This document shows positions 1,382 through 36,361 of a stretch of 64,000 bases of DNA, piece by piece (within the stretch, counting starts at the first letter, position 1; the number at the start of each line of letters is the position of its first letter). This DNA is from Chlorella sorokiniana (lineage: Eukaryota > Chlorophyta > Trebouxiophyceae > Chlorellales > Chlorellaceae): positions 1,736,001 to 1,800,000 of the forward strand of contig CP084608.1 of the NCBI GenBank assembly GCA_025917655.1. The letters run 5' to 3'. The position numbers and the translations under genes were made by a program. The notes beneath the pieces were generated by a model. That model was not told the origin of the DNA. It did not search any database and was given only the letters and a program-made list of their open reading frames with translations.

Positions 1382-3472
1382 ATGGCGGGCCCCCCGCGAG
1401 CCAAGGCCCTGTCAGAGGATGAGGGTCGGATCCTGATGCAGGCGCTGGCAGTGCCGCCCATCCCTGGCTTCCAAGGCCCGGGTGCTAGAGTGGAGCATGT
1501 GCTGGCGCCGCGGGACGGCCAGCTGTCGGAGGTGGTGACCGAGGCGTTGGGCCTCCCACAGGCAAGCCCCGTTCTCCCCGCCCTCTCCCTGTTGCCCCTG
1601 TCTTCTTTGCGGCGCGCACACTGCATGGGTGAAACAAAGGGTAAAGGCAAGGGATTGCCAGCGCAGATCAAAAGGAAAGGGGCCACATGCCGCCGCTCTG
1701 AAGCCCCTCCCTGCCCCCACCCCCTGCTCAGGGCGCCGCCGAGCTGCTGCTGCGGTTCGGCGCCATCCACACCTGCCCCGTGCCACCTGCGCTGCCCCCG
1801 CCATCCTGGCCGGCATGAGCCCCGAGGCGGCGGTGCGGGTGCAGCAGACGCGTGAGGAGGCGCTGCGCCGGGCGGGCACCAGCGTGAGCGCGCGCGGCTG
1901 CAGGCGCCTGCGTGCACTGCCGGCCCTGCCATGCATCAGCCGCTCCTCCCTCACAGAGTCGTGCGTGGCCAGAACCACTGGCGGCACCCTTCCTCCCTCT
2001 CCCCCACCAACCTCCCACACACCTGCCCTTGCCCACGCCCGGCATCCCCGCAGTCCCAGGCTCGCACGCCGCAGCGCATGTCGCGCGACGCGCCGGTGGG
2101 GCGCCACGCCTACATCCGCGTGCACCTGCACCCCAAGCGCTTCCCCGCGGCGCACGCGGCGTCCTGGGCGCAGCGCGTTGTGGCGGCCACGCAGCAGTAT
2201 GTAGTGGTCAGCAAGCCCGCGGGGTGCCCGCCGCGCCCACGGTGGACAACCTGCTGGAATGCGCCCCCGCCTGCACCGCTCAGGTGGGCTCCGCGGGCGT
2301 GGCTGCGGGAGGCTTCCACAGCATGCGCTTCTTTGCCCTGAGCCTGTGCCCCTGCATCGCCCGCACACTGGTGGGGAACGGGTTGCGCAGAGAGCGGCAG
2401 GCGGGGCAGCCCAGTCCAGACCACCCTGCAGGCCGTCTTGAGTTGCTTTGCCTTTGAGGGGGAGGGGGGCCGTGCGCTCTCAGGTGACTGCTGCTGCTGC
2501 TTCCAGTCCCAGTGCCCTCAAGCCCGGGCCGCTGCCGCTGCCGACACAGGCGCTGGGCCTGCCTGAGCCGCTGCGGGTGACCCACCGCCTGGACCAGTGC
2601 ACCGAGGGGCTGCTGGTGCTGGGCAGGAGCCGCGCCTTCGTGGCCGCCTTCAACGCCCTGGTGCAGCGCAGCAGCGGCGGCAGCAGCAGCGGCGAGCCTG
2701 GCAGCAGGGAAGCAGGCGGATGGAGCAGCGGCGGCGGCGGGCGCAGATGGCGACGATGTGGGGGCGGGCGCGGCGCCGCTGCGCCCACTGCGCAAGTTTT
2801 ACCGCGCTGCGACCGCGGCGCCGCCGCCGCTGGGCACGCTGCGACATCACATCAGCGTGGAGCGGCGGCAGCAGGGCCTGCCCGGCTTCACCGTTGCGCA
2901 CGACGCGCCGGTGCCGGCCAGCCTGCCAGCTGGGCTTGTGGTGCTGCAGGCGGCGCCTGTGCAGCTGTCGGCAGCTGCAGCTGCCAGGTGGGGTGCAGAG
3001 TGGGCGTACGAGTGCGTGATCGAGCTGCTGACGGGGCGCACGCACCAGATCCGCACGCAGCTGTCGGCTGTTGGGTGCCCCCTGCTGGGCGACAGCCTGT
3101 ACCAGCCGCTGGCCTGCCCCCAGCTGCGCCAGGTGCGGCGCTGCTGCAACACGCACTGCTGTGGTGCTGACAGTGCACCCGTTGCGGCCAGAGACGGGAG
3201 AGTGTGCATCCTGGAGCGCACTTCTCCCGCCCTCCCACCAGCTTGCTCACCCCACTCTTCCGCTCGCCGCATGCACGCAGCGCCTCTACGCCGGCGACCC
3301 CTGCCTTGATGTGCAGCCCGCCGGTGAGCGGCTGCTGGCGGAGCCTGAGGGCGGCATCGGCCTGCAGGCCTGCCGCCTGTTGGTGGCTGACGCATGCATG
3401 GGCGGCAGCGCGGAGCGGCCAGCGGAGTTCAAGGCGGGGACGCCCTGGTGGCGTGCAGAGACGGAGAGTTGA
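1382..3472 (+). CDS. RluA-family RNA pseudouridine synthase, plant PUS6 type
   Basis: This enzyme isomerises uridine to pseudouridine in RNA. The closest relative I recognise is Arabidopsis 'RNA pseudouridine synthase 6, chloroplastic'. Exon 1 (1382-1561) ends at a GC donor (CAG|gcaagc), and the next exon from 1732 starts GAAELLLRFGAIH. Then come YIRVHLHPKRFP, the catalytic motif THRLDQCTEGLLVLG (Asp is the nucleophile, about 2580-2625), and AYECVIELLTGRTHQIRTQL (about 3007-3063). An intron at 3133-3280 separates PQLRQ from the last exon RLYAGDPCLDVQPAGERLL, which ends in the family's typical TPWWR. Two single-base frame breaks (between about 1775 and 1810, and at the G run 2221-2224) interrupt an otherwise conserved protein and look like sequence errors. 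No clear transit peptide is seen at this start. A second upstream ATG (1333) is out of frame. Its 3' half is duplicated downstream. Confidence 0.82.
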
Positions 3473-31709: not shown

Positions 31710-31714
31710 TTACA
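31710..31714 (-). promoter_or_regulatory. Possible TGTAA polyadenylation signal for the CBS-DCC gene
   Basis: TGTAA occurs on the minus strand about 515 bases past the stop at 32227. The region 31470-32226 otherwise holds no recognisable gene and fits a 3' untranslated region plus spacer. Confidence 0.25.
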
Positions 31715-32226: not shown

Positions 32227-34522
32227 TCACCACTCTGCCTGGCACTCCTCCTCGTCGTCCACGCAGTGCTCGATGCCCTCGCTGGTCATCTTCATGCGCC
32301 GCATCGCCAGCACCGCGTCCATGCCCTTGCCCATGGGCAGGCGCAGGCGCGACAGCAGCTCATACACCCACTCCACCAGGGTGGAGATGATGGGCAGGTC
32401 GCCAAACGCCGCCGCCCAGCCCAGCCCCACCGCCGCGTACAGCTGCTTCAGCGCGTCGGTGCCCTTCAGAATGGTGCCGTTGCGCTGGATGGCGTGGATG
32501 GTCTGCGGCATGAGAGGGGGCGGCGGGCAGCATGAGCGAAAGGTCCACGCTGGGCATGGCAGGCCAGCGCGGCAGGAGTGTGGCTGGCACACAGGTCGAA
32601 GCAGGCCCGCAACAGGCCCTCTGTGAGCGTACATCCCCCTCCCCCGCACCTCCCCACCCCACACACACACGCGCCCCCGGGCCCGGCTGCCCACCTCCAT
32701 GGCCTCCTCATACAGGATGCCCTCGTTGTCGGCGGGGTCGTAGGCCATGGAGGCAATGTTGACAAACTTTATGCGGCCCTGCTCGCCGTCCTGGCGGCGC
32801 AGCATGGACACCAGGGAGAGGCACATGGAGCAGTCGCCGTCGTACAGGTACTTTACGGTCCTGGGGGGCATGGGGGGGGGTGTCAATGGACAGTGATGAC
32901 TCGGGATGGCAGCGGGGCGGTCGGCATTGGAGCAAGCTTGGACGCATGCAAGCGGGGCGGTGGAGAGTCCAAGGACGTGCGCGGGCACACGGCGGCAGCG
33001 GCCACACGACCGCGGCGCCTCACCAGGCCGCCTCCTGCTGCGCGCACTTGGCCGCCTCCTCCTCCTCGTCAAACGTGGCCGACAGGCTGCTGGTCAGCTG
33101 CAGAGGGCGAGCAGGTGGCAAGTTGTCAATACCGCAGGAGCGCTATGGCCCACCGTGCCTGCCCATCCTTGCAATCAAGGTGCTTCTGAGGGCTGCCATG
33201 CACCTGAACCACTCCTGTCACCATCGCAATGGCCTGCTGCTCATCACATCTTGCGCCAGGCCCCGACAAGTCAACAACCAGCCATCAAAGACCGCAGCCC
33301 AGCTCTCACCCCGCCCCCCCTTCCCCCCCCACCACACACACACACACAAACCCCACCACCACCAACCCACCTGCAGCATGTCGTCGGTGGACAGGTAGTC
33401 CTCGCCGTAGGCCGCCATCTCGCGGTAGAAGTCGCGCTTGGCAGCCAGCGCGCGCTGGAAGACGTCGGTGCGGCTGATGATGCTGCGGGAGGCAGGGGGG
33501 CGCGCGGCGGGCCGTGGGGCAGCGGCAGCGCAGCCTCGGCTCACCAACAGCGCCAGCACCAACTTCTGGGGTTGGTGGCTGCACCCCGCTCCCGCTCCAC
33601 GCAGCCCCCATCCCCCTGAGCCCGCCCTGCGCGCACACGCCCTGCCAGGCTCACCCGACTAGCTTGCCATCGTCGTCCACCACGGGCAGGCGGTGGATCT
33701 TCTTGGCCAGCATGACCGCCGCGGCCTCGCCGGTGGGGGTGGAGGGCGCACCACGATGGGCGGCGACGACATGTGGGTGCCCACCGACTCCGACATGCTC
33801 GCACCCTGGCGCCAGGCAGGAGAAAGGGAGCGCACCGGCTTGTATGATGAAGGCTTGTCGCGACGGGCAGCGGCTGCCCCTCGCACAACCAAGGGCAGGC
33901 GCCGTGGTGACACGGCGCCAGCCGTGCAGCAAGCGCTCCCCGAGGGCTGCTCCTTCGTGACGTGCTGCGCGCCCGCACCTGCTTGCGCAGCCGGTTGATG
34001 TCGCGGATGGATATGACGCCCACCACCACGTTGCTCTCGTCCACCACAGCCAGGCCTGTCACCTTGTCCAGCTTGGAGGCGGCGGACGAGAGCGGCTGCT
34101 CGGGCGTGGCAAACCGCAGCGCCGTCGTGGTCATCAGGTCTTGCACTGCACGACCAGCGTTTGTGATTCGTGGGTGGTTTTCATAGCTGACTTGATCAGC
34201 CAGCCGACAGCTGGTACTGCTGAAAGCAAACAAGGCGCGCTGCAAAGCAGGGCGCTGGCGGCGGCAGTCGCCCGGCCAGTGCAGGCGCCCCTTTCTCGGC
34301 CCCCTTACCCAAGCCGAAAGGCTCGTCGATCGGCAGCTCATCGGCCCTGATATCCTCTTGGGGCTGCGTTGCTGCTGCCACCCTGAGCAACGAGTGCCTT
34401 GACTCCCGGCCGCTCCGCCGTGGACAAGCTGCTGGCAGCGTGCTACAACTGATTCGTGGCCGCACCGTTGCCCTGAAGGCGCCGACAGCCGGACACCGGC
34501 CGCTCAGAGACTGCGCCAGCAT
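32227..34522 (-). CDS. Chloroplast-type fusion protein: two CBS domains plus DCC (DUF393) domain
   Basis: The first exon (ATG 34520-34522) gives MLAQSLSGRCPAVGAFRATV followed by Arg/Ser-rich sequence, a typical plastid transit peptide. It ends GLV at an intron whose phase joins VQDLMTTTALRFATPEQPLS and LAVVDESNVVVGVISIRDIN, the first CBS motif. The second is MSESVGTHMSSPPIVV, then VMLAKKIHRLPVVDDDGKLV and IISRTDVFQRALAAKRDFYR. Next come EDYLSTDDMLQ, LTSSLSATFDEEEEAAKCAQ and QEAAW, spliced in phase (TG|G) into TVKYLYDGDCSMCLSLVSML, the DCC motif with C-x2-C, followed by IKFVNIASMAYDPADNEG, MEVWVYELLSR-type helices and the stop at 32227. CBS pairs sense adenylates and, in plants (CBSX), regulate thioredoxins. 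DCC proteins are predicted thiol-disulfide oxidoreductases. One base seems missing from the G run 33744-33746. That all exons form one mRNA is inferred from matching intron phases. Confidence 0.75.
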
Positions 34523-34587: not shown

Positions 34588-34592
34588 TTACA
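34588..34592 (-). promoter_or_regulatory. Possible TGTAA polyadenylation signal for the VIT-family gene
   Basis: TGTAA on the minus strand lies about 215 bases past the stop codon at 34808, a usual distance for a green algal 3' untranslated region. It is a five-base motif only. Confidence 0.35.
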
Positions 34593-34807: not shown

Positions 34808-36361
34808 TCAACCGCTGGCATCCACGTTCAAGGCGCGCCCGATGCCGTACACGACGCCCAAAGCCATCCAGCCGCCCAGCACCACACGCATGCCGCCACG
34901 CAGCACGTTCGCTCCACCAAGGAACGCCCCCAGGAAGCCAAAGAGGCACAGGCCAGCTGCACGAGGGTGCAGGGGAGCGGGCATGTGCTCAGCAGGAGCT
35001 TGCTCCCACTGGCACAAAAAATTGCAGAGCTTATGTCGGAATGCCCCACTCTGCTGATGAGCAGCGTATTCGCAGCAGATGCGCATGGCACTCACCCGTG
35101 GTGGCCCCTGCAAGGATGCCAATGCGCAGGGTGGGGTCGCTGACCCACGCGGCCGACAGCAGCGGCAGGGCCGCCCCTGTCACGAAGCAGATGGCGGACA
35201 CGAGGGCGGCTTGCAGCGGGTTGGCCAGCTCGTCGATGTCTGGGGTGCGGGGGCGAGGGGCACAGGCAGGAGTCGGGCACGTTAGCGACACCAGCCGCGG
35301 CGCCAGGCACAGAGAGCGGCGCTTTCCCTCACACGCCGCGCGCAGCTTGTTCAAAGCTTGCACACAGGTCTTGCTGGGCATGTGCCTCTGCAGGCGCGGG
35401 CCTCACCAATGCCCAGCTCATCCCGCGCGTGCGCCCGCACTACGTCTTTCTCGCTCAGCACCTCGGCCACTTGGCGGGCCAGGGAGTAGGGCAGCCCTCG
35501 AGCCACGTAGATCTGCGCCAGCTCCTCCAGCTCCCGCGCCTGCAGGAAGGGAAGGGCGGTGGGTGGAGCGGGGTGGTGTCATTGAGTGTATTGGTGTGGG
35601 GTGGGGTGGGGGGTGGGGGGGCATGGGCTGAGGGAGGGGGACCGTGTTGGAGGGGCTGGCTGCAGGGAGATGGGCAGACCGATCTTTTGTGTACTCATGA
35701 CAGCGCCCCCCCCTCCCCACCCACCACCACCACACACACACACCTGCGCCTCCGGCCCCTTGAGCTGCTCCAGCCTCTCCTGCTCGATGTCCGCCTTCTC
35801 GGCATCTCGCTGGCTGCTCACACTGATGTACTCGCCCACCTAACCGGGTCAGTGGGGTAGGGCAGGAGCGCCGCAGGAGGCAGTCAGCGCCTGGGGACTC
35901 AAAAAGCGGGGAAGCATGCGGCGGCGCCACGAACCCAGTTCTCCCAAACTTGTAGGCTTGTGAGCAGTCGGCGGCAGCCCAGCTCCAAGGCCAGCCCTGT
36001 GCCCTGCTCACCGCCATTGACAGCGAGCCGCCAACCATGCCGGCCACGCCCGCCAGGCGCAGCGTGGCCAGGTTGGAGGTGTGCCCCCACGCCCATCATC
36101 AGGGCCGCGGTGGACACCAGGCCGTCGTTGGCGCCCAGCACCAGTGCACGCAGCCAGGGCGCGCGGTTGCTGTGGTGCCTGCACCCGCGTGGTTGCGGAA
36201 GAAGAGGGGTGGCAGAGGGGTCGGTGCTCCGCGGCCTGCTGGCCGGCCCGCGGCGGCTGCCAGCCGCCTCTCCTGGTCATCTCGCTAGCCTTGGCTTCGA
36301 ATGATGCATTCCCTCACGTGTGATCACAGTATTCGTCGACCTCGCCGTTATGAGCCTGCAT
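34808..36361 (-). CDS. VIT/CCC1-family iron/manganese transporter
   Basis: Vacuolar iron transporter family proteins move Fe2+ or Mn2+ out of the cytosol into vacuoles or other compartments. The first exon (ATG about 36361, MQAHNGEVDEYCDHT) joins in phase to HHSNRAPWLRALVLGANDGL and VSTAALMMGVGA, the family's first helix with its G-x-x-DG motif. A frame change at a G/C run leads to AGVAGMVGGSLSMA, then VGEYISVSSQRDAEKADIEQ and ERLEQLKGPEAQ (the cytosolic metal-binding helix region), QIYVARGLPYSLARQVAEVL, DIDELANPLQAALVSAICFV, TGAALPLLSAAW and GFLGAFLGGANVLRGGMRVV, ending ALNVDASG (stop 34808). About five membrane helices are visible. The first exon may not be the true start, since no good context is seen. 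Confidence 0.85.

Follow-up and report, generated by a model that had tools for sequence, protein, structure and literature searches.

A predicted CBS-CBS-DCC fusion gene in the green alga Chlorella sorokiniana

Gene layout at the locus

The window analysed was a stretch of 64,000 nucleotides of Chlorella sorokiniana DNA (contig CP084608.1, positions 1,736,001 to 1,800,000) from a genome of 38.8 Mb in 15 contigs. Its guanine plus cytosine (GC) content was 0.63-0.72 across 4-kb steps and its genes were intron-rich, as is usual for a green alga. The minus strand contained a gene, here called the CBS-DCC gene, that was rebuilt as seven exons from an ATG at 34522 to a TGA stop at 32227 and that encodes a presequence, two CBS domains, an acidic linker and a DCC1-like domain, in that order. 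A preliminary description had placed the gene at 32227..34522, which proved to be its exact extent from ATG to stop. The start codon was the sole ATG of its frame downstream of an upstream in-frame stop. All six introns were of the GT-AG type, with lengths of 163, 173, 172, 273, 163 and 192 nt for introns 1 to 6 respectively. The three intron phases given in the preliminary description (G/TG, LQ/LTSSL in phase 0, and TG/G) were correct and every exon junction was in phase, the sole exception to the reading frame being a break within exon 3.

Exon 1 (34309..34522, minus strand, as are all features of the gene) contained the ATG, a presequence rich in Ser, Ala and Arg and the first mature residues, followed by the donor gtaagg; the GC fraction at third codon positions (GC3) was 0.70. 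From its look, the presequence is a putative organelle transit peptide of the chloroplast type. Exon 2 (33979..34145, GC3 0.91) carried CBS domain 1 with the motif GVISIRDI. CBS domain 2 began in exon 3 (33655..33805, 151 nt), where the frame break at 33741..33748, probably an assembly indel, adjoined runs of C, with GC3 values of 0.93 and 0.85 on either side. The end of this domain (GIISRTDVF) and a helix-like extension were encoded by exon 4 (33371..33482, GC3 0.97), and the acidic linker LTSSLSATFDEEEEAAKCAQQEAAW between the CBS pair and the DCC1-like domain by exon 5 (33024..33097, GC3 23/24). Intron 5 (32861..33023, 163 nt, gtgagg...cccccag) separated the CBS and DCC halves of the gene and contained an ATG at 32871 in the DCC frame. 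The N-terminal half of the DCC1-like domain, with YDGDCSMC, was encoded by exon 6 (32695..32860, GC3 0.91) and the C-terminal half by exon 7 (32227..32502, GC3 0.95), both matching Pfam PF04134; exon 7 also encoded the acidic tail EHCVDDEEEC and the TGA stop. Intron 6 (32503-32694, 192 nt) was without an in-frame stop, and if retained it would leave the frame open and add 64 residues within the DCC domain.

The CBS pair and the DCC1-like domain

The protein was scored against Pfam with the two frames of exon 3 joined by an X at the break, and the unjoined N and C pieces were scored separately. The CBS family (PF00571, cut-off 24 bits) matched two stretches of the X-joined protein with 86.6 bits, while the N piece (domain 1) and the C piece (end of domain 2) gave 36.1 and 45.2 bits, both exceeding the cut-off. 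The DCC1-like family (PF04134, cut-off 27.8 bits) gave 72.5 bits for the X-joined protein and 73.8 bits for the C piece, spanning positions 2-109 of 113. Both Pfam families were therefore well over their cut-offs, in agreement with the CBS pair and DCC domain first proposed for this gene. A scan of NCBIfam returned weak CBS matches, all far under their cut-offs, and no DCC family for the protein.

When the CBS pair was compared with solved structures, 78 distinct sequences were matched, the closest being Arabidopsis CBSX2 (E 8.1e-18). Arabidopsis CBSX1 ranked fourth (E 8.6e-17), and a further CBS protein (9znf) came between CBSX2 and CBSX1. The Asp of G-x-x-S/T-x-x-D, which we take to be the adenylate-ribose-binding motif of CBS domains, was present in both halves (GVISIRDI and GIISRTDV), suggesting that the pair may bind adenylates or related nucleotides. 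The chloroplast proteins CBSX1 and CBSX2 resemble the CBS-DCC protein in having a presequence, a CBS pair and a proposed link to thiol redox chemistry; they differ in lacking a DCC domain, and in CBSX2 the stretch between the CBS halves is about 25 residues longer by alignment count. A search of the genome with a CBSX2 fragment, which was blind to introns, found the CBS-DCC gene as its sole match, a weak one (E 0.003, 40/100 residues), and the fusion may replace a separate CBSX of the land-plant kind in this alga. In the available text of the CBSX nomenclature the name is kept for proteins that carry no other functional domain besides the pair (Kushwaha et al. 2009, PMC2694836). The CBS-DCC protein is consequently not filed as a CBSX, its CBSX-like pair notwithstanding, because a DCC1-like domain follows.

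The Cys-x-x-Cys that had been reported for the DCC domain was present, as DGDCSMC. In an alignment of eight DCC domains the D, the G and both Cys residues were invariant, although two of the eight were only 19-22% identical to the domain in the window. The same genome contained, on contig 12 (locus L009 1-2103, G000:C12:230354-232456), a stand-alone DCC gene whose start resembles a presequence and in which an apparent GC-AG intron (gcaagt...ctgcag) split the YDG codon just ahead of the catalytic Cys. The window domain was 41% identical to this protein and up to 40% identical to proteins of Pseudanabaena and Phormidium. The two algal genes differed in intron positions and in their motif, DCPLC on contig 12 and DCSMC in the window. 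The contig 12 gene, presumably the probable counterpart of Arabidopsis AT1G52590, looks like the cyanobacterial type, and the fused domain like a diverged paralogue. Plastid DCC proteins of the AT1G52590 type share a PF04134 group with the window domain (YDP..N.GI, AM.RIHAI, GLGW); these proteins and that of contig 12 stand alone, whereas the window domain is fused. A tree of DCC domains, with long branches and no trustworthy root, placed the window domain by shared motifs with the contig 12 and cyanobacterial REV-type group.

A model of the window DCC domain with intron 6 retained gave a poor fold (pLDDT, the predicted local distance difference test score, of 44.9), and a cyanobacterial homologue was modelled instead. 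This model had the order beta-alpha-beta-alpha-beta-beta-alpha with Cys9-x-x-Cys12 heading helix 1, and its structural matches were mostly glutathione S-transferase (GST), glutaredoxin and thioredoxin among the 50 VIA rows listed. Searches of solved structures by sequence revealed no DCC relative: the single sequence had no match at an E value of 10 or less, and a profile gave one match at E 1.9 that was judged to be chance. Outside the Cys-x-x-Cys, one Cys was found in the acidic linker and two in the acidic tail (32227-32290). Four cyanobacterial DCC proteins (L014-L017) terminated in a Cys-x3-Cys pair, and it is conceivable that the tail Cys residues of the algal protein could act as a second shuttle or redox pair.

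The proposed protein and its alternatives

The locus very probably holds a single fused gene, whether intact or broken. Pfam matches, intron phases and GC3 support the single CBS-CBS-DCC gene of the preliminary description well; its statement that the exons read as one protein failed once, at the exon 3 break, an exon inside which it had listed no check. GC3 was 0.91-0.97 in exons 2 and 4-7, the linker exon included. Among 935 open non-coding 72-mers of the locus, which overlapped and were drawn from the introns and the downstream flank, one equalled the linker exon's value of 23/24, and on this basis the exon looks coding. The gap between the CBS and DCC halves had the same 163-nt length as intron 1, ended in a pyrimidine-rich AG acceptor and was without TGTAA. 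TGTAA, a green-algal signal, did occur on either side of the gene, at 34592 between it and its upstream neighbour and at 31714 beyond the stop. With 15 copies on the minus strand in 64 kb it is rare in any case, so that the lack of one in a 163-nt stretch carries little weight.

For the protein itself, the favoured reading is one organelle-targeted, probably plastid, CBS-DCC protein with nucleotide-dependent thiol exchange, a reading that we rate at about even. A nuclear gene would give a single transcript and one protein with a presequence, a CBS pair forming one Bateman module, an acidic linker and a thioredoxin-fold DCC domain with DxxCxxC, the frame break in exon 3 being treated as an assembly error. 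The DCC domain would swap disulfides with a partner protein through its Cys-x-x-Cys, and the CBS pair would bind an adenylate or related nucleotide. In the bound state the pair would alter dimerisation or oligomer state, or access to the DCC Cys pair, and thiol exchange would thereby track the energy state. That an energy sensor is coupled in this way to a redox domain is a plausible hypothesis. A more specific form is tentative and rather doubtful: a plastid CBS pair would directly gate the fused oxidoreductase, and the energy charge of the stroma would in this way govern thiol exchange with a dedicated target, all in a single polypeptide.

Several observations weigh against an intact, catalytically active fusion. 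Read literally, the DNA of the gene contains one true frame change and stops early, in exon 3. Exon 5, if left unspliced, ends immediately in an in-frame W-TGA, and the ATG at 32871 lies in the DCC frame 11 nt ahead of exon 6. The thioredoxin cis-Pro position was not occupied by Pro in the aligned DCC domains, as read from the alignment. The precedent from Arabidopsis is also contested: in the available text of Murai et al. (2021, PMC7921703), CBSX1 and CBSX2 were without effect on the reduction of FBPase, SBPase and NADP-MDH by thioredoxins f and m in vitro, and mutants showed no such effect either, in contrast to what earlier work had proposed. The preliminary description had taken CBSX proteins to be regulators of plastid thioredoxins, a premise that is thus weaker than was stated.

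The alternative that survives best, though we consider it unlikely, is a fused protein whose DCC domain has a structural role or binds a partner, without redox catalysis, and whose CBS pair regulates something else, such as a partner in plastoglobules or the envelope. The absence of a cis-Pro and of any DCC relative in the sequence searches of solved structures is consistent with this, as is the tabulation of AT1G52590, by annotation a putative DCC oxidoreductase, under plastoglobule core genes and proteins in the accessible part of PMC12587418. It is opposed by the invariance of both Cys residues and of the preceding D and G, which includes the two aligned domains of only 19-22% identity to that of the window. 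Arabidopsis DCC1 also argues for catalysis: this mitochondrial thiol-disulfide oxidoreductase belongs to the same DxxCxxC family and reportedly reduces carbonic anhydrase 2 (CA2); it acts in another organelle, and the portion of the paper available mentions no CBS domains (PMC7598583).

Less probable again is a split locus, either with two open reading frames (ORFs) sharing a transcript or with two neighbouring genes. One product, a CBS-pair protein, would terminate in EAAW-stop at the border of exon 5, and the other, a DCC protein, would start from the ATG at 32871 (MPPRTVKYLYDGDC), translated bicistronically as in green algae or from a promoter of its own; either route seems improbable. Transcripts that are exclusively polycistronic have been described as prevalent among green algae, many with inter-ORF regions of <100 nt, and the bicistronic loci had median ATG ratios of 0.43-0.49 ahead of ORF 2 (PMC11291117, in the text available). 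The CBS-DCC locus differed in this respect, since the spliced exons 1-5 contained 9 ATGs against 6.6 expected, a ratio of 1.36, with no depletion ahead of the DCC domain. Two more ATGs (32947 and 32927) were present in the gap, which has the intron-like acceptor and length described above, and a separate DCC protein would be without a presequence. The W-TGA stop is uninformative, because W-TGA arises at any junction of that phase in which TG precedes a GTGA donor. A separate DCC start had been named in advance as a mark of two adjacent genes; with the ATG at 32871 and the W-TGA such a reading exists on paper, but the ATGs ahead of it are not depleted.

The break in exon 3 was compared with four other genes of the same genome, a non-random sample. 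The exon is 151 nt long where the flanking phases demand 2 modulo 3, and the shift near 33741-33748, inside CBS domain 2 and beside C runs, takes the reading from frame A, GASMSESVGTHMSSPPIVVRP, to frame B, STPTGEAAAVMLAKKIHRLPVVDDDGKLV. Apparent frame breaks were present in three of the four. The gene just upstream of the CBS-DCC gene (34808-36276, minus strand, several exons) resembles vacuolar iron/manganese transporters of the VIT1 family (PF01988) and had one frame change, in its first exon and beside a G run, its VIT1 score being 46.6 bits X-joined and 30.9 bits unjoined. Three apparent frame changes each were seen in a CBS gene on contig 3 (L001 1066-1665, G000:C3) and in a third DCC-like gene, which belongs to another subfamily (CNGGVNFMLDWD; L012 about 1490-1800, minus strand, G000:C1:1321081-1321371), while the DCC gene of contig 12 was clean of frame breaks in exons read by eye. 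Because similar breaks are this frequent, the break in exon 3 is more likely to be an assembly indel than the sign of a dead gene, and an indel-prone assembly is the simplest reading. The least probable alternative, a decaying or recently broken gene whose product is a truncated CBS domain 1 or an alternative splice form, fits the early stop in the DNA, yet the rest of the gene is intact, GC3 is high on both sides of the break and the comparison genes carry breaks of the same kind.

Occurrence and significance of the fusion

DCC matches were found in 185 of 386 cyanobacterial genomes. There was no CBS-DCC fusion among the cyanobacterial matches listed, in which the three frames longer than 250 residues (406, 262 and 253) had DCC as their only Pfam family; shorter frames were unscanned and could hold a small fusion. 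A single scan of genome contigs, the only one to reach other bacterial phyla, returned four DCC loci of Pseudanabaena and Phormidium, in whose frames of 168-209 residues no CBS domain was visible by eye. Two scans of viral contigs gave no relative of the CBS-DCC protein.

No paper describing a CBS domain together with a DUF393 or DCC domain, or PF04134 with PF00571, was found in the open-access literature, and a survey of CBS proteins in plants contained neither 'DCC' nor 'DUF393' in its main text, as far as that text was available (PMC2694836). The CBS-DCC protein therefore looks like an undescribed combination of two known domain families, known here from one genome. A precedent for joining a CBS module to a small redox-switch protein is given by the cyanobacterial CBS-CP12 fusions; CP12 differs in being a thioredoxin-controlled switch rather than an oxidoreductase, and the function of CBS-CP12 is likewise described as undefined in the accessible text (PMC3906501).

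The apparent indel-proneness of the assembly bears on any gene call made on this genome. Provided that the alga makes the fused protein, it would give a handle on the DCC1-like proteins, which had no solved relative in the sequence searches. It would also make it possible to test within one molecule whether CBS modules tune plastid thiol chemistry, a disputed idea for which work on CBSX proteins has sought loose partners with conflicting results in the reports as available. If the proposed reading is true, the CBS-DCC protein could link energy status to thiol chemistry.
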